The notes under the pieces: model-generated
What the model was told of the DNA's origin: nothing
Database searches by the model: none
The model's input: only the letters and a program-made list of their open reading frames with translations
Translations under genes and position numbers: made by a program
In this document: positions 57,692-64,000 of the stretch, in pieces
Numbering within the stretch: the stretch's first letter is position 1
Layout of the letters: each line of letters starts with the position of its first letter
NCBI GenBank assembly: GCA_900450595.1
Contig: UGGS01000002.1
Location: forward strand, 186,001 to 250,000
DNA from: [Flavobacterium] thermophilum
Lineage (GTDB): Bacteria > Bacillota > Bacilli > Bacillales > Anoxybacillaceae
DNA: 64,000 bases
Reading direction: 5' to 3'

Positions 57692-58171
57692 GTGCATATT
57701 TCCATTGCCGCTGTGGGCAAATTGAAGGAAAAATATTTAATTCAAGGGATCAATGAGTACACAAAGCGTCTGTCCGCATATGCAAAAATTGAGATAATTG
57801 AGGTCGCCGATGAAAAAACCTCCGAACGGGCAAGCGAACTTGAGGAAGAGCAAATCAGACAGCGGGAAGGCGAGCGGCTGTTGGCGAAAATTCCGCATGA
57901 TGCCCACGTCATCGCGCTTGCGATTGAAGGAAAGATGAAATCGTCCGAGCAATTTGCCGCCCGTCTCGATGAGCTCGCCACCTATGGCAAAAGCAAGGTA
58001 GTGTTCGTCATCGGCGGCTCGCTTGGCTTAAGCAAACAAGTGATGGCGCGCGCCGATGAGACGCTGTCGTTTTCGAAAATGACGTTTCCACACCAGCTGA
58101 TGCGTCTCATTTTGCTCGAGCAGATTTACCGCGCATTTCGGATCAACCGGGGGGAGCCGTATCACAAGTGA
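57692..58171 (+). CDS. rlmH: 23S rRNA (pseudouridine1915-N3)-methyltransferase RlmH
   Basis: A 159-residue SPOUT methyltransferase: [34 protein letters not shown] and the complete C-terminus [15 protein letters not shown]. It methylates pseudouridine 1915 of 23S rRNA. GTG start at 57692 after AAGGTGGGGATGAT. Confidence 0.97.
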
Positions 58172-58173
58172 GC

Positions 58174-58207
58174 CGTCCCCTTTTACTTTGGGGGATGTTT
58201 TTTTAAT
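58174..58207 (+). terminator. Terminator of rlmH
   Basis: GTCCCC-TTTTACTTT-GGGGGAT followed by seven T. The remaining part of the 58208-58524 gap contains no gene that I can recognise. Confidence 0.65.
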
Positions 58208-58528
58208 ACTTTTTTCTCAGTTTAGCTGGTTTTGTTCCGATAATGTTTCGTGTGATACATAAATGGTGACACGATGTTCGGACGTTTTATCGGCAAACAA
58301 CGACTTTAACATCCGCCCCAAGAGGCAAGGGGTATGCGTCGTTAGTCGCCGTAACAAGATGAATCAAAGGGCCCTCACCACCTTATTGAACTATTCCTCT
58401 TCTGTCATCCATTACTGAAAAGGATGAAGAAGTTTGCCTTGGCAGTGCAGCCGAGGATAGCCCCATTTTTTCGTTAATGTATGGTGGCTGCGCCGTTTTT
58501 GCTTAGGCCGGACGGTGCGGAGAAAACA

Positions 58529-58556
58529 AAAAGGAGCTGCCCCGTCACGCAACTCC
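58529..58556 (-). terminator. Terminator of the GGDEF gene
   Basis: On the minus strand GGAGTTGC-GTGACGG-GGCAGCTCC followed by TTTTTGTTTT, overlapping the stop codon region. Confidence 0.7.
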
Positions 58557-59783
58557 CCCGCATTGGGCTGATACTTTATTTTTGCCGCTTTCTTTCGAAC
58601 GGAGCAATAAATGGTCGGCATAAATGTACGCTTTTTCAATTGACATCGTTCCTTCTGCTTGACAAAAGTAAAGACCGAACGACGACGTATAGGCAATGGG
58701 ACGTTTCGCCGCCATATAATCGACCAACACGGTGCTATGGCGCACTGCTTCTCGAATCTCCTCGACAAGCCGGACGCTCTCTTCAAACGTGCGATGACGC
58801 AAAAACATCGTAAATTCTTCACCGCCGCTGCGGAACAAAAAATCGCCCTCTTTGAGAAACTGTTTCAAGGTTGAGGCAAAATGGCGGATCACCTCGTCGC
58901 CGACGGCATGGTTATACGTGTCGTTGATCGTTTTAAAATTGTCGATATCGGCGACGACGACGCCAATCCATTCACCGGATCCGTTTAGCTTGGCGATCGT
59001 TTGATCCATGTAGGCACGGTTATGGATACCGGTCAAAAAGTCGGTGTAGGCCATTTTTTCGAAGTGGTCGCGTTCTAGTTTATGCTGGATGCTTTGCGAT
59101 TTGGAAAAGAACGAGCGGCTGACGAAGTAATTCAGCAAAAATAAGCTCAAAAGCATATCCCACCGCTGTTCTTGCAAAAAGAGAAATAACAGACCGTTTG
59201 TCAGCGCCGTTTTTCCCATGTCCATCCAGCTTCTCGTCTTAATAAAGTCCAACGCCTCGCGCTGTGTCTGAATGTCGCCGGTTATATAAAAAATGATGAT
59301 CAGGCAACAGTCAGTCAAAAAGGAAACGACGATGACGAGCAGGAATAAAAGCAGCCAGAAGCCAATGGACGGAATAGACTGAAACAGCGGACCAAGGAGA
59401 TTGTATAAGGCAAACGCGAGCGAATTGAACGTCACAAACGAGCCGATGTTGTACAATGTGTGCAGCCATTCATCGGGTTCCGCTGTTTTCAAATATTTTT
59501 TTGCTATATGTTCAGTCAAGCGAAACAACGCTTCAAAGATAAACAGCCCGAACGGGCCGGCAAATAAGGCGAACGATAAACTATAGTTAATGCCGTAATC
59601 AACGGGAATATTGTTTTTCGTTTTGTCTATGACGCGCAAGTGCGAATACAAGCTGGAAAACAGCCAATAAAACAGCAAGGCGATCATATATGTACGATCG
59701 AAGGAAGGCGGTTTTGACATAACCGCAACAGCAATCGATGCGAAAAAAACGGAAAAAATAACCGGTCGCGCTCGGAATAACAT
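58545..59783 (-). CDS. Membrane diguanylate cyclase (GGDEF domain)
   Basis: A 412-residue protein with about seven hydrophobic helices in residues 1-235 and a C-terminal GGDEF domain (about 245-405). The active-site motif reads SGGEEF, which is functional in this family, and the VVADIDNFKTINDTYNH metal/substrate segment is intact, so it likely makes cyclic di-GMP from GTP. No inhibitory RxxD motif is evident before it. ATG at 59783 after TAGGAGAGAGAGTCGAC. It runs against replication at the start of the accessory region. Confidence 0.93.
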   Translation of the reverse strand: MLFRARPVIFSVFFASIAVAVMSKPPSFDRTYMIALLFYWLFSSLYSHLRVIDKTKNNIPVDYGINYSLSFALFAGPFGLFIFEALFRLTEHIAKKYLKTAEPDEWLHTLYNIGSFVTFNSLAFALYNLLGPLFQSIPSIGFWLLLFLLVIVVSFLTDCCLIIIFYITGDIQTQREALDFIKTRSWMDMGKTALTNGLLFLFLQEQRWDMLLSLFLLNYFVSRSFFSKSQSIQHKLERDHFEKMAYTDFLTGIHNRAYMDQTIAKLNGSGEWIGVVVADIDNFKTINDTYNHAVGDEVIRHFASTLKQFLKEGDFLFRSGGEEFTMFLRHRTFEESVRLVEEIREAVRHSTVLVDYMAAKRPIAYTSSFGLYFCQAEGTMSIEKAYIYADHLLLRSKESGKNKVSAQCGGVA

Positions 59784-60079
59784 GTCGACTCTCTCTCCTA
59801 TTATCTGACCTCTGACAACTTCAGCGCTGACGAAGCGATGCTAAAAAGAGGATGATCACTCCAATGACGGTGGCCGTTGGCGATCAATTGATGGATTGTT
59901 TGACAGACAAGGCGGATGGCGAGTTCAGAAACCGCTGCTTCTTGGCATTGGCGACGGCAATCATGTTCCCCATGGGAACAAACGAACATATAACTAATTC
60001 TATTATAGTACTATATAACCAATTCTGAAAATAGAAAAAAAGCGGCTGTCTCCGTCTTTTTTCGTCAAAATTTGACATC

Positions 60080-60559
60080 ATGAGCGATGCCGCTAGATCC
60101 TGCCTCTTTCGTTGTATATAATACGAGCGGCGAAAGGACGGGGATCAAACATCGATCGTTCCATCAGCACCATCGGGCGGGGACGAGAGACCGCGAGTTT
60201 CTGGAAATCAAATGTACGCCGGACTGAGGGCGCTGCACTTCCGAGCTGAGCCTATGGAAAATCGCGGCGACGGAAGTGCGCAGCGTTGCCTTCGTTGATC
60301 GCGGTCAAGACTGTTTCAACGGTCATTGGCCCATTCGGCATCTATCTGTTTGCCTGCCCGATAAAGGAAACGGCATTTTCGTTGGCGAAAACAATAGTAA
60401 GGGGCGACCGCCGCTCTGACCGCGATGGCCATCGTCTGTGCCGCTGCGGCCTAGTGGCTTGCGCCGCACGGATATGAATCCGCTGTTCGTGCGGCCGGCT
60501 GCGTTTGCATCGTTATGGCCATGTGTCGCCCCGTTTCACGACATCGAGGAGGGAAAAAG
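60080..60559 (+). pseudogene. Possible decayed membrane-protein gene upstream of glycerate kinase
   Basis: No intact gene is present in 59784-60559. In 60290-60475, hydrophobic peptide stretches appear in different frames (for example SLIAVKTVSTVIGPFGIYLF, and later GATAALTAMAIVCAAAA followed by a stop), as expected of a frameshifted transporter gene. Permeases for sugar acids are often found next to glycerate kinase, but the family cannot be named from these fragments. Low confidence. Confidence 0.3.
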
Positions 60560-60586
60560 ATGAAGGTCGTCATTGCCCCAGATTCG

Positions 60587-60591
60587 TTTAA
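60587..60591 (+). other. TAM/target sequence TTTAA at left insertion junction
   Basis: TTTAA immediately precedes the element. IS200/IS605 elements insert 3' of a short fixed sequence that also serves as the target-adjacent motif of the associated TnpB. Confidence 0.75.
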
Positions 60592-60599
60592 CAACCCAT

Positions 60600-60652
60600 A
60601 CGCCGCAAGTCCCCCGCCTCTAAGCGAAGCGTAGGCGGGGGATACGCGGCGT
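60600..60652 (+). repeat. Left-end hairpin of the IS605-type element
   Basis: Outer stem ACGCCGC (60600-60606)/GCGGCGT (60646-60652); inner stem CCCCCGCCT (60611-60619)/AGGCGGGGG (60633-60641) with a 13-base loop. It lies 9 bp from the element boundary. Confidence 0.8.
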
Positions 60653-60741
60653 CCTTTTTTTTACTTTTGATCAAAAAAAGTAAAAAAATGGGAGAATCGA
60701 TGAAAAAAGAATATAGACTCCCATGACAAAAAAATTTCGTC

Positions 60742-60931
60742 ACCATCGGAAGGATGAAAACAACCTTCTGTCGAATGGTCTCCTTGCAGCTGGGGTCATG
60801 AGGTCGTTGTATCTATGGTACGTAAAAGTCCGATATATAGACGGACCCCAGTAGTCTGGTGCACTACGGAATGTCGCTCCCTTGAGGGAAGCACGCAGGA
60901 TAGAATGCTTGAACAAAGGCTGCTGCACCAG
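60742..60931 (+). ncRNA. Candidate bridge RNA of the IS110-family element
   Basis: The leader of the IS110 transposase folds into three units. First, hairpin ACCAT (60742-60746)/ATGGT (60775-60779) with inner GAAGG/CCTTC. Second, a 46-base loop closed by CTGGGGTC (60790-60797)/GACCCCAG (60844-60851). Third, a 60-base loop closed by CTGGTGCA (60856-60863)/TGCACCAG (60924-60931). A 5' hairpin followed by two large internal loops is the layout of IS110 bridge RNAs, whose loops specify target and donor DNA, and these RNAs are encoded in this position for the IS110 group. The second large loop contains CAGGATAGA, repeated at the probable right end of the element (62279-62287). Loop assignments are inference. 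Confidence 0.65.
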
Positions 60932-60964
60932 CTGTTTTTGAGAACGAAGCAGGGAGGAAGACCG

Positions 60965-62185
60965 ATGCGCGTCTTGTATGAACGCTGTTGCGGATTGGAC
61001 GTGCATAAGCAATCGATTACGGCTTGCGCCCTTACCCCTGAAGGAAAAGAGATTCGCACGTTTGGTACGCTGACCGACGATCTCGAGGAGTTGGTGGATT
61101 GGCTGAAAGAAAAAAAGGTGACGCACGTTGCCATGGAGTCGACGGGCGTATATTGGAAGCCAGTGTATAATCTCCTCGAAGCAGAGCCGATCGAAGTGCT
61201 TGTCGTCAATGCCCAACACATCAAAGCGGTTCCTGGGCGAAAGACCGATGTCAAAGATGCCGAATGGATCGCGGACTTGCTTCGCCATGGATTGCTAAAA
61301 GGGAGTTACATCCCTCATCGAGCTCAGCGGGAGCTCCGGGAACTGGTCCGTTATCGGCGCAGTTTGATCGAGGAACGGGCACGGGAGCTCAACCGCATCC
61401 AAAAAGTGCTGGAAGGAGCCAATATCAAGCTTTCTTCGGTCGTATCCGACATCAACGGGATGTCGGCCCGGCTCATCATTCGCGCCCTTATCGAAGGAAA
61501 AGACGATCCGGCGGCCCTCGCCCAGCTCGCCAAAGGGCGGCTGAAACAAAAAACGGAAGAGCTCCGGCGCGCATTGAAAGGAGTGATGGGGCCGCATCAA
61601 CGCATGATGCTGGCCGAGCAATGGCGTCATGTGGAGTATTTAGATGAAGCGATTGCCCGGTTGGATCGGGAAATCGAGGAACGAACGAGCCCTTTTCATG
61701 AAGCGCTGGAGCTCATCGATACGATCCCGGGAGTGGGGCGGCAAAGCGCGGAACAAATTGTAGCGGAAATCGGGACGGACATGAGCCGGTTCCCTACCGC
61801 CGCGCACTTGGCCTCATGGGCCGGAATGGCTCCCGGGAATCATGAGAGTGCAGGGAAACGGTTGTCAGGTCGAACGAGGAAAGGGAACAAGAAGCTAAGG
61901 TCGTGCCTCGTGGAATGCGCCCGTGCCGCCGCCCGAACGAAGAACACGTACCTATCGGCCAAGTATCATCGGATCGCCAAACGAAGAGGAGCGAATCGAG
62001 CGAGTGTCGCGGTCGGGAGAACGATTTTAGAAATGATCTATTATATCTTAACTCGAAAGGAACCGTATAGAGAGTTGGGAGCCGACTACTGGGATCGGCA
62101 GCGAGAAGCGAGCATCGTGCGTCAAACGGTGAAACGATTAGAGGGGTTAGGGTACGAAGTGAAACTAGAAAAAACGAGTGCATAG
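60965..62185 (+). CDS. IS110-family transposase (DEDD recombinase)
   Basis: A 406-residue protein with the N-terminal RuvC-like DEDD domain: D12 (GLDVHK), E58 (AMESTGVYW), D95 and D98 (TDVKDAEWIADL). A coiled-coil central region follows, and then the C-terminal transposase domain (DTIPGVGRQSAEQIVAEIG, ASWAGMAPGNHESAGKRLSG) containing the serine of the HESAGKR motif. All catalytic residues are present, so it may be active. ATG at 60965 after GCAGGGAGGAAGACCG; the frame is open 50 codons further upstream through the leader but that part is RNA-like. No terminal inverted repeats are seen, in line with the family. Confidence 0.93.
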   Translation: MRVLYERCCGLDVHKQSITACALTPEGKEIRTFGTLTDDLEELVDWLKEKKVTHVAMESTGVYWKPVYNLLEAEPIEVLVVNAQHIKAVPGRKTDVKDAEWIADLLRHGLLKGSYIPHRAQRELRELVRYRRSLIEERARELNRIQKVLEGANIKLSSVVSDINGMSARLIIRALIEGKDDPAALAQLAKGRLKQKTEELRRALKGVMGPHQRMMLAEQWRHVEYLDEAIARLDREIEERTSPFHEALELIDTIPGVGRQSAEQIVAEIGTDMSRFPTAAHLASWAGMAPGNHESAGKRLSGRTRKGNKKLRSCLVECARAAARTKNTYLSAKYHRIAKRRGANRASVAVGRTILEMIYYILTRKEPYRELGADYWDRQREASIVRQTVKRLEGLGYEVKLEKTSA

Positions 62186-62209
62186 CACTTATTAACCATA
62201 TATATACTG

Positions 62210-62262
62210 AAATACCTTCCTTTGGAATCCGATTCCGAAGGCTAGGTGGGCTCCGTTTTTTG
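62210..62262 (+). terminator. Hairpin and T-run after the IS110 transposase
   Basis: CCTTC-CTTT-GGAATC paired with GATTCC-GAAGG, then GGCTCCGTTTTTTG; probable terminator inside the right end of the IS110 element. Confidence 0.5.
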
Positions 62263-62332
62263 TCTTAAATGGTGTTTTCAGGATAGATTTTCGATTATTC
62301 ATATTTTATATTATAAGTAAGGAGGTGAAAGG

Positions 62333-63517
62333 ATGTATCGAACGGTCAAAATACCTTTTCAAACATCAAAAAAAGATATCGATCGATTATTCGAATGCAA
62401 CCGAATATCGGCTCAAATTTGGAATGACTGTTTAGTCATTGCCAAAAACTATGCATTAAAGAATAATGGAAAATGGATCAACCAAACCGAACTTCAAAAA
62501 CAAACGAAGGGCAAATACCCGATCCATAGCCAAAGCATTCAAGCCGTATGCCATAAATATTTGAACGCCAGAGACAGCGCCAAAAAAGCCAAACAAAAAG
62601 GGCTAGATAACAAATATCCGTACAAACAGAAAAAATATTTCAACACGAAATGGGCAAATAACGGATTTATCATTCACCCAAATGGGACCATTGAACTGAA
62701 AATGGGTCGCTGGGAAAGAAAAAACCAACCTCCTATTGTAGTGAAAATCGATAAAGAACAAATTCCAAACGGCACTGTCAAAGAAATCGAACTCATTTTT
62801 GATGCGAAACATTGGAAACTCATGCTTTGCCTCAGTTATGAAAACGGTGAACAACCAACTACTAAAAAAGAAGGAACTATCGCTGCCGGTGATCCTGGCG
62901 AAATTCACGCCATTAGTGCCGTCAGCGAAAACGGAAGCAGCATCATCATCACCGGTAGAAAAATAAGAAGCATTCATCGCCTTCGAAATAAAAAAATAGC
63001 AGAACTGCAAAAAAAGATGTCCAAATGTAAAAAAGGTTCGCGTAAATGGAAAAAATATAACCGCGCGAAGCAATATATTTTATCGAAAAGCGAAGCGCAA
63101 TTAAAAGACTGCTTGCATAAAACGACCAAACAATTGGTCGATTGGTGTTTGGAACAAAACGTCAAACATTTCATGATAGGCGATGTCGAAGGCGTCCAGC
63201 GCAACAAAAAGAAAAAGCGATCCAAATTGGTGAACCAAAAATTATCGAACTGGTGTTTTGGCAAACTCTACGACTATTTGAAATACAAACTAGAAGCTAA
63301 AGGCATCACTTTTGAAAAAGTGGATGAATCGTATACCACGCAAACATGTCCTGTTTGCGGGAAGAAGAAAAAACCTTCTTCTAGAAATTTTATTTGTGCT
63401 TGTGGTTATTCTCAGCATCGGGATGTCCATTCGGCATGCAATATTCTTACAAAACACTTATATGGAGAATTCCGACCGATGAAAATAACGAACCACAAGT
63501 ATCTACGGATCGCGTAA
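62333..63517 (+). CDS. tnpB: RNA-guided nuclease TnpB
   Basis: A 394-residue TnpB. The N-terminal wedge/REC part is lysine-rich. The split RuvC nuclease domain has D187 (AAGDPGEIHAISA), E286 (MIGDVEG) and D364 (QHRDVHSACNI), and the zinc finger uses C339, C342, C355 and C357. All catalytic positions are occupied, so it may be active, cutting DNA guided by an omega-RNA from the element's right end. The ATG at 62333 follows AAGGAGGTGAAAGG. Codons are AT-rich (many AAA, AAT, ATT), unlike the surrounding chromosomal genes, which indicates horizontal origin. No tnpA accompanies it. Confidence 0.94.
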   Translation: MYRTVKIPFQTSKKDIDRLFECNRISAQIWNDCLVIAKNYALKNNGKWINQTELQKQTKGKYPIHSQSIQAVCHKYLNARDSAKKAKQKGLDNKYPYKQKKYFNTKWANNGFIIHPNGTIELKMGRWERKNQPPIVVKIDKEQIPNGTVKEIELIFDAKHWKLMLCLSYENGEQPTTKKEGTIAAGDPGEIHAISAVSENGSSIIITGRKIRSIHRLRNKKIAELQKKMSKCKKGSRKWKKYNRAKQYILSKSEAQLKDCLHKTTKQLVDWCLEQNVKHFMIGDVEGVQRNKKKKRSKLVNQKLSNWCFGKLYDYLKYKLEAKGITFEKVDESYTTQTCPVCGKKKKPSSRNFICACGYSQHRDVHSACNILTKHLYGEFRPMKITNHKYLRIA

Positions 63518-63708
63518 GCGAGAAGTAGTAGATGGTGAGTTCCCACCCTTCATGCTTTGGCATGATGTTGCTTGCTATTTCTTTCTGTTGTGTTTCCGTG
63601 CTTGGTCACGAGATACACGGGAAACCCGGTGTATCGTGAAACACCCGGAAAGAAAAAGGCAAGAAACCCCCACTTCAACGCCTACAGGCGTAAGTGGGGG
63701 AGGTTCAT
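63518..63708 (+). ncRNA. Omega-RNA (reRNA) scaffold region of TnpB
   Basis: The 191 bases between the tnpB stop and the right boundary are non-coding and structured. Included are CATGC/GCATG near 63549-63566, a long TCACGAGATACAC/GTGTATCGTGA hairpin (about 63606-63638), and the right-end hairpin. TnpB omega-RNAs overlap the tnpB 3' end and run into the flank, the first bases past the element being the guide. Here the guide would start AGAAAGCCTTTCTGCG (63709 onward), identical to the glycerate kinase sequence that followed TTTAA before insertion. The 5' end of the RNA is unknown and may lie within tnpB. Confidence 0.7.
63667..63700 (+). repeat. Right-end hairpin of the IS605-type element
   Basis: CCCCCACTT (63667-63675)/AAGTGGGGG (63692-63700) with inner CGCCT (63679-63683)/AGGCG (63686-63690), 8 bp from the right boundary. 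Shape and position mirror the left-end hairpin. Confidence 0.82.
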
Positions 63709-64000
63709 AGAAAGCCTTTCTGCGCTCGAAGTCGCCGAGGCGGTGGAACGCGGGTTCCGGTCGGTGTTTCCAGAAGCTGAGTACGTGAAAGTGCCGATGG
63801 CCGATGGCGGGGAAGGGACGGTGCAGTCGCTTGTTGATGCGACTGGCGGCCGCATCGTGGAAGTGAACGTGACCGGACCGCTCGGTGAGCCGGTGCGGGC
63901 GTTTTTTGGCTTGCTTGGCGATGGGAAGACGGCGGTGATTGAAATGGCCGCCGCCTCGGGATTGCACCTTGTCCCGCGCGACCGGCGCAACCCGTTGGTG

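Follow-up and report, generated by a model that had tools for sequence, protein, structure and literature searches.

An IS110-family element inside a TnpB element that splits glxK, and a candidate third bridge-RNA layout

We analysed a 64,000-nucleotide stretch of [Flavobacterium] thermophilum DNA (assembly GCA_900450595.1, contig UGGS01000002.1, positions 186,001 to 250,000 of the forward strand; hereafter the window), in which the glycerate kinase gene glxK is split by a TnpB element of the IS200/IS605 type that itself contains an insertion sequence (IS) of the IS110 family. We conclude, with a probability of about 0.8, that the arrangement arose by two successive insertions and that the nesting is a by-product of IS density, not a partnership. 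In addition, the IS110 element belongs to a lineage whose predicted bridge RNA appears to carry its guides in the reverse of the order published for IS110 elements. All window features described below lie on the plus strand, except the spacer, which is given without strand.

The TnpB element occupies positions 60592 to 63708 and interrupts glxK directly behind TTTAA (60587 to 60591), a flank that resembles a transposon-adjacent motif (TAM), is common to the TnpB copies and is the exact point at which BLAST matches between copies start. The 5′ piece of glxK, recognised from its sequence, from relatives and from TIGR00045, runs from the ATG into codon 11 and ends with this TTTAA (60560 to 60591); the 3′ part, recognised by comparison with relatives, begins at 63709 and continues past the window edge at 64000. 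The family was checked on the uninterrupted open reading frame (ORF) of a relative (L126, 384 amino acids), which matched TIGR00045 glycerate kinase. The initial annotation had proposed that the outer boundaries were exact and that joining 60591 to 63709 restored the gene, and this was borne out: the two sides of the insertion point are adjacent in all 13 other same-genus genomes searched. In each of them glxK is uninterrupted there. The insertion point is preceded by TTTAA in 12 of these 13 relatives and by TTCAA in the remaining one (L131).

Within the TnpB element, the IS110 element lies between the left end and tnpB. It is 1,574 bp long (60714 to 62287), with an exchange point within a 5-base overlap, ATAGA (60713 to 60717 and 62283 to 62287). 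Its ends were ambiguous by these 5 bases and were settled by means of copies with the same ends elsewhere in the genome, where the element is present in full twice more and in part once, and of the IS110-free TnpB copies at loci L012, L102 and L103. Compared with the empty site in L103, the insertion is precise, showing only the 5-base ATAGA overlap and no conventional target duplication. In L103, which comes from a relative, the left end leads directly into tnpB; L102 differs from this by 6 additional bases, and in L012 the junction is found again beside an IS1634 insertion. Because these three TnpB copies lack it, the IS110 element is the later insertion, and the nesting described earlier, IS110 inside TnpB inside glxK, is thus confirmed to the base. 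These copies, together with the related TnpB element at L104 and the IS110 copies with no TnpB nearby, also dispose of the idea that the TnpB element includes the IS110 element as an integral part, for which we found no evidence and to which we assign a negligible probability.

The outer element has the anatomy of a TnpB element without its own transposase. Its left end (60592 to 60713) carries a subterminal hairpin, CCCCCGCCTC, at 60611, and its right end (63518 to 63708) carries the hairpin CCCCCACTTC at 63667 and finishes with GGTTCAT. TnpB itself (62333 to 63517, 394 amino acids) has the RuvC and zinc-ribbon domains, as indicated by profile matches to PF07282, PF01385 and NF040570. Three copies of the element in the genome have both ends in common, and each has TTTAA as its left flank. 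Neither the ORFs nor a profile search of the element revealed a tnpA gene; five Y1 transposase matches (PF01797) were found elsewhere in the genome. The element thus resembles the tnpA-less IS200/IS605-type TnpB elements, which we take to be the IS1341 group: it shares their RuvC and zinc-ribbon TnpB, their subterminal hairpins (here read from the sequence) and their insertion behind TTTAA without target duplication (here known from the empty site), and the window copy differs from them in having the IS110 element between its left end and tnpB. No Rfam family matched positions 58000 to 64000 at E ≤ 1. PADLOC matches of TnpB to Cas12f-type and other models were not taken as signs of a defence system.

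These observations are consistent with the following course of events. The TnpB element would first have entered glxK behind TTTAA, leaving the target unduplicated; since it lacks tnpA, we infer that a Y1 transposase encoded elsewhere moved it in trans. An omega-RNA is expected over the right end of the element and the end of tnpB, with the first 16 to 20 or so bases from 63709 onward as its guide. TnpB-guided cutting of the empty site is established to promote retention of such elements, and TnpB with a guide formed by the first bases after 63708 would cut intact glxK beside TTTAA, favouring retention here as well. In 12 of the 13 relatives (L122 to L134), glxK keeps TTTAA ahead of the putative guide bases, and the omega-RNA might recognise the gene in several of them. 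Later, the IS110 element would have entered the spacer between the left end and tnpB: excised in circular form, it would recombine wherever its bridge RNA directs it, and this RNA, encoded upstream of the recombinase, would most likely have recognised ATATAGA|T in the spacer. Since this insertion separates tnpB from the left end of the element, it probably lowers the expression of both tnpB and the omega-RNA.

The spacer appears to be a landing zone for IS elements in general. It comprises an AT-rich left part between the left-end hairpin and tnpB (60656 to 60713) and a right part (62288 to 62332) that likely includes the ribosome-binding site of tnpB, and its AT content over these 103 bp is 78%, against 60% overall. 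Copies or pieces with at least 98% identity to this TnpB element were found in 3 of 14 genomes; with L011 and L101 counted as one because their flanks are identical, they represent five distinct loci. The spacer is occupied by IS110 in the window, by IS1634 in the sister copy L012, where it lies in the right part with the repeated bases TTATTC, and by both ISL3 and IS4 at L101/L011; the ISL3 element is a remnant in L011, and L101 holds IS66 in addition. At L103 the spacer is empty but tnpB holds a 110-bp insert, and L102, whose spacer is likewise free of IS elements, is truncated. Five of the six mapped insertions (IS110, IS1634, ISL3, IS4 and IS66) therefore fall within 103 of 1,543 bp (binomial test under uniform insertion, post hoc, P value = 7.5 × 10−6). 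The IS4-family element in the sister copy (L101, 2834 to 4176; also L011) repeats ATAGATTTT(C), which is the window IS110 element's own site. The 8-mer ATATAGAT at the IS110 site occurs 94 times in the genome, compared with 40 occurrences of a control read backward, and many such sites are therefore open to the IS110 element. The simplest reading of the clustering is that IS elements prefer this AT-rich, partly palindromic spacer, and the nesting is then probably ordinary, a single event in an expendable stretch that gathers several IS families.

The same clustering could instead reflect selection, with spacer insertions kept for shutting off a costly TnpB nuclease and IS110 as one of several convergent off-switches. 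All three copies of this TnpB element in the genome (the window, L011 and L012) do carry different IS elements in their spacers, and none of its five loci in the 14 genomes is both intact and uninterrupted, tnpB being split in L103 and truncated in L102. Against selection, the L101 copy took up three spacer IS elements although one would silence it, and tnpB is identical or nearly so among the interrupted copies. Moreover, the spacer is uninterrupted in seven full copies of a related TnpB element with about 65% amino acid identity (L007 to L010, L019, L035 and L038, of which L010 and L019 share flanks and represent one site) and in L104, a relative with a TnpB ORF of 390 amino acids. Two further copies of the related element (L020 and L021) have damage within tnpB. 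Taken together, we regard selected silencing as unlikely and retain successive insertion into a permissive spacer as the better account.

Several points weigh against that account as well. Uniform insertion is a crude null, since several IS elements favour AT-rich DNA and insertions in tnpB or in the ends may be lost faster, and the count comes from only five independent TnpB loci, one of them truncated (L102). Promoter scans gave chance-level results both in the uninterrupted spacer and in the window. The target-loop guide GATATATAGA and the insertion site share the 7 bases ATATAGA; to the right of ATAGA the site reads TTTTC, and its agreement with the right guide is poor beyond ATAGAT. Moreover, a copy in the same genome (L013) has a left flank, CTGTTAGA, that misfits the left guide. 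Because of this poor right-side fit and the L013 misfit, sequence alone does not prove that insertion at the window site was guide directed. The earlier suggestion that the recombinase had targeted a site in the TnpB element stays plausible, given the shared ATATAGA.

The initial annotation had also seen in the nested pair an unusual co-localisation of two programmable systems. A rival reading is a functional partnership, in which the IS110 element would have adapted to insertion into TnpB elements and would hitch-hike on the retention that TnpB assists. The left guide does match ATATAGA in the spacer, and an IS110 element lying within the TnpB ends could travel along. Furthermore, about 90 bp from the right end of the partial IS110 copy (L015) there is a hairpin like the left end of this TnpB element (36 bp, 86%). 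There is also precedent for IS110-family elements in mobile elements: according to PMC11187229, ISEc21 sits in IS3 transposase genes, and, going by titles cited in PMC11208160, IS4321/IS5075 lie in Tn21 inverted repeats and IS1383 lies in IS1384 inverted repeats. Like the window IS110 element, the latter occupy a fixed place in another mobile element; their titles speak of specific targets, whereas for the window we found a single event. When this TnpB was used for a protein search of 52 loci that surround IS110 copies and derivatives (with flanks of about 0.3 to 1.5 kb, some of the loci overlapping), TnpB or a relative turned up only at the window's own copy. A dispersed repeat at L107, L110 and L189 is also a better fit to the right guide than the TnpB site. 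Since the spacer is a generic landing zone that also took ISL3, IS4, IS66 and IS1634, and since other IS110-family elements are already known in mobile elements, a special meaning of the co-localisation is not supported, and we consider a functional partnership very improbable.

The IS110 recombinase (60965 to 62185, 406 amino acids) matches PF01548 (1.1 × 10−40), PF02371 (1 × 10−25) and NF033542 (above cut-off), covering the DEDD RuvC domain and the Transposase_20 Ser domain, and its motifs GLDVHK, MESTG, KTDVKDAEW and HESAGK align with IS621. When TnpB is aligned to a solved relative, the E in GDVEG and the D in HRDVHSACN are in register, and the D in AAGDPG is one column away from the relative's D. 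The earlier statement that all catalytic residues of both proteins are present presumes a catalytic role for these positions.

We next turn to the RNA of the IS110 element. Non-coding sequence amounts to 251 nucleotides upstream of the recombinase gene, compared with 102 nucleotides downstream. A bridge RNA core is predicted upstream (60789 to 60932), with an outer stem GCTGG...CCAGC around two loops. The structure was taken from the consensus fold of 20 chosen relatives and not from the single-sequence fold: the consensus has 36 pairs, 10 of them with two-sided changes, and places both target-guide strands within a conserved GGUC/GACC stem, whereas in the single-sequence fold (z = −2.3) the guide strands are largely paired with each other. 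The 5′ strand of the target loop, GTTGTATCTAT (60806 to 60816), is antisense to the right flank and is the predicted right-target guide; the 3′ strand, GATATATAGAC (60832 to 60842), is in the sense of the left flank and is the predicted left-target guide. In the donor loop, the 3′ strand GCAGGATAGA (60895 to 60904) includes the right end of the element, CAGGATAGA (62279 to 62287, the left donor), and is the predicted left-donor guide. No convincing right-donor guide was found.

Copies of this element and its close relatives vary in one upstream loop, and their flanks vary along with it. Left flanks ending in ATATAGA mostly go with GATATATAGA, with L013 as the exception, while GAAAGATAGA and GAAGGATAGA go with left flanks such as AAGATAGA and GGGGATAGA. 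To quantify this covariation, we assembled a table of 92 rows. It comprised the window, 11 copies from same-genus genomes and 80 relatives from named genomes, which were the best of 521 confirmed and had their ends set by aligning copies within genomes; L114 was left out for its start pattern. The guide parser covered the upstream region, and no guide pair was parsed in 8 rows (L197, L206, L229, L237, L249, L251, L255 and L113), leaving 84 loci with 41 distinct 3′ guides; some parsed starts are possibly wrong, for example in L247. Removal of identical flanks left 81 of these 84, with the left flank known in 70 and the right flank in 69. The match score was the mean longest common stretch between flank and guide strand, compared with 1,000 permutations.

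Left flanks matched the 3′ strand of the loop in the sense orientation (mean 4.79, permuted 3.68, standard deviation 0.10, reached by 0 of 1,000 permutations, n = 70), and right flanks matched the 5′ strand in the antisense orientation (3.75 versus 3.07 permuted, 0 of 1,000, n = 69). The placement known from IS621 was at chance for the left flank in the 5′ strand (2.94 versus 3.01 permuted, reached by 784 of 1,000 permutations) and for the right flank in the 3′ strand (3.25 versus 3.27). With one row per distinct guide, equivalent results were obtained: 4.54 versus 3.52 for the left flank (0 of 1,000, n = 35) and 3.57 versus 3.08 for the right flank (0 of 1,000, n = 37), with the IS621-like placements again at chance. 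Poor left-guide fits include L013, L232/L234, L205 and L243. Of the 69 elements whose donor loop was parsed (81 offered), 65 have the right-end 6-mer within the 3′ strand, the misses being L218, L242, L244 and L259; within a chosen subset of 48 elements the count was 42 of 45. Among the 16 unique pairs of that subset the match exceeded all 2,000 permutations, although guide and right end are co-inherited. Read from these matches, the guide strands of the lineage appear to be ordered with the right-flank guide 5′, the left-flank guide 3′ and the left-donor guide 3′, and in the window as in the other parsed loci they lie upstream of the recombinase gene.

As a control, IS621 copies were read in the orientation used for the lineage, in which the plus strand carries the gene and the left flank adjoins the RNA region. 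There ATCGGGCCT, which is like the left flank ATCAGGCCT, has offset 62; the strand with GTAG, antisense to the CTAC of the right side, follows at offset 87, reproducing the published order. The window has its right-flank strand at offset 92 and its left-flank strand at 118. PMC11208160 describes the left-target guide of IS621 on the 5′ strand, and PMC11187229 describes RNAs of the IS1111 group with the complement of the top strand first and IS110 RNAs with the reverse; published descriptions thus link an upstream RNA, in IS110 elements, with one guide order and a downstream RNA, in IS1111 elements, with its reverse. The upstream RNA and reversed guide order of the window's lineage therefore combine IS110 placement with IS1111 order. 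In both published groups the 5′ strand would belong to the flank beside the RNA-bearing end, and here to the far flank.

The window element otherwise shares much with the known systems. As described in PMC11208160, IS621 and ISCro4 likewise have a DEDD recombinase with a C-terminal Ser domain, an RNA at the upstream end with two loops, left and right guides that meet at a short core, and no real target duplication. The difference from IS621 lies in the left-target guide, which is on the 5′ strand in IS621 and on the 3′ strand here, where the left-donor guide is also 3′; the two recombinases match in two separate stretches only (83 bits). ISEc21 (PMC11187229) also has an upstream non-coding region and sits in other mobile elements; there the match to the top strand lies on the 3′ side of the match to the bottom strand, whereas in the window element it lies on the 5′ side. 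Elements of the IS1111 group (ISEc11, ISPa11, ISKpn4 and IS4321/IS5075) share with the window element a top-strand complement before the bottom-strand match but have the RNA downstream of the gene and subterminal inverted repeats of 7 to 17 bp. By eye only, no such repeat pair was seen near both ends of the window IS110 element; TGAAAA(C/T)A can be seen in each end, though on the left it lies some 40 bases inward. A 14-row recombinase tree tentatively separates the window sequence from both IS621/ISCro4 and IS5075/IS4321 (support 85/87); two long-branch rows, ISEc45 and an Enterobacter element, fall on its side.

On balance, we think it somewhat more likely than not that this lineage, seen in many Bacillota, represents a third bridge-RNA layout, with the RNA upstream and both loops in IS1111 order. 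We found no description of an upstream RNA with IS1111-type order in the literature searched, and its novelty is not certain, as six structures predicted in PMC11208160 (ISPpu10, ISAar29, ISHne5, ISCARN28, ISAzs32 and ISPa11) stood outside our comparison of guide order.

Other members and derivatives of the IS110 group were seen among the loci. Insertions at L107, L110 and L189 share one dispersed repeat (TGCAAC[GA]AAGAAGTTTAACATATCC), perhaps the main target of the group. L110 (529 to 763) and L111 (605 to 839) are 235-bp derivatives made of left-end bases 1 to 171 and the right end, without recombinase; they retain the target loop and not the donor guide. Elements of 108 bp consisting of the two IS110 ends alone, without RNA or recombinase (L118, L119, L187, L188, L189, L190, L192 and L193), occur in five of the genomes read and probably move in trans. 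In L116 and L186, a shortened IS110 copy stops near the internal donor-guide sequence CAGGATAG instead of at the true right end, as if the guide gene had acted as a donor end. In Aneurinibacillus terranovensis (L223, near position 1250), a related IS110 element with the left guide CAGGATAGAC forms a tandem with another IS110 element of the group, which has about 65% amino acid identity to the window recombinase and whose right end (CAGGATAGA) is the exact point of insertion. The left flanks of L206 and L240 resemble IS110 right ends, and no second recombinase was found in either locus.

No paper on the nesting of an IS110 element in a TnpB element was found in the literature searched. We regard the nested pair as a curiosity of nature that has a simple explanation; the reversed guide order is of greater consequence, because the lineage separates RNA placement from guide order. 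If the proposed layout is true, the recombinase complex would, relative to its own gene, engage target and donor with a polarity opposite to that of IS621, which makes the lineage a test case for how a recombinase reads its RNA. Moreover, its natural guide-target pairs, some of them from organisms with thermophile names, are candidates for programmable recombinases.

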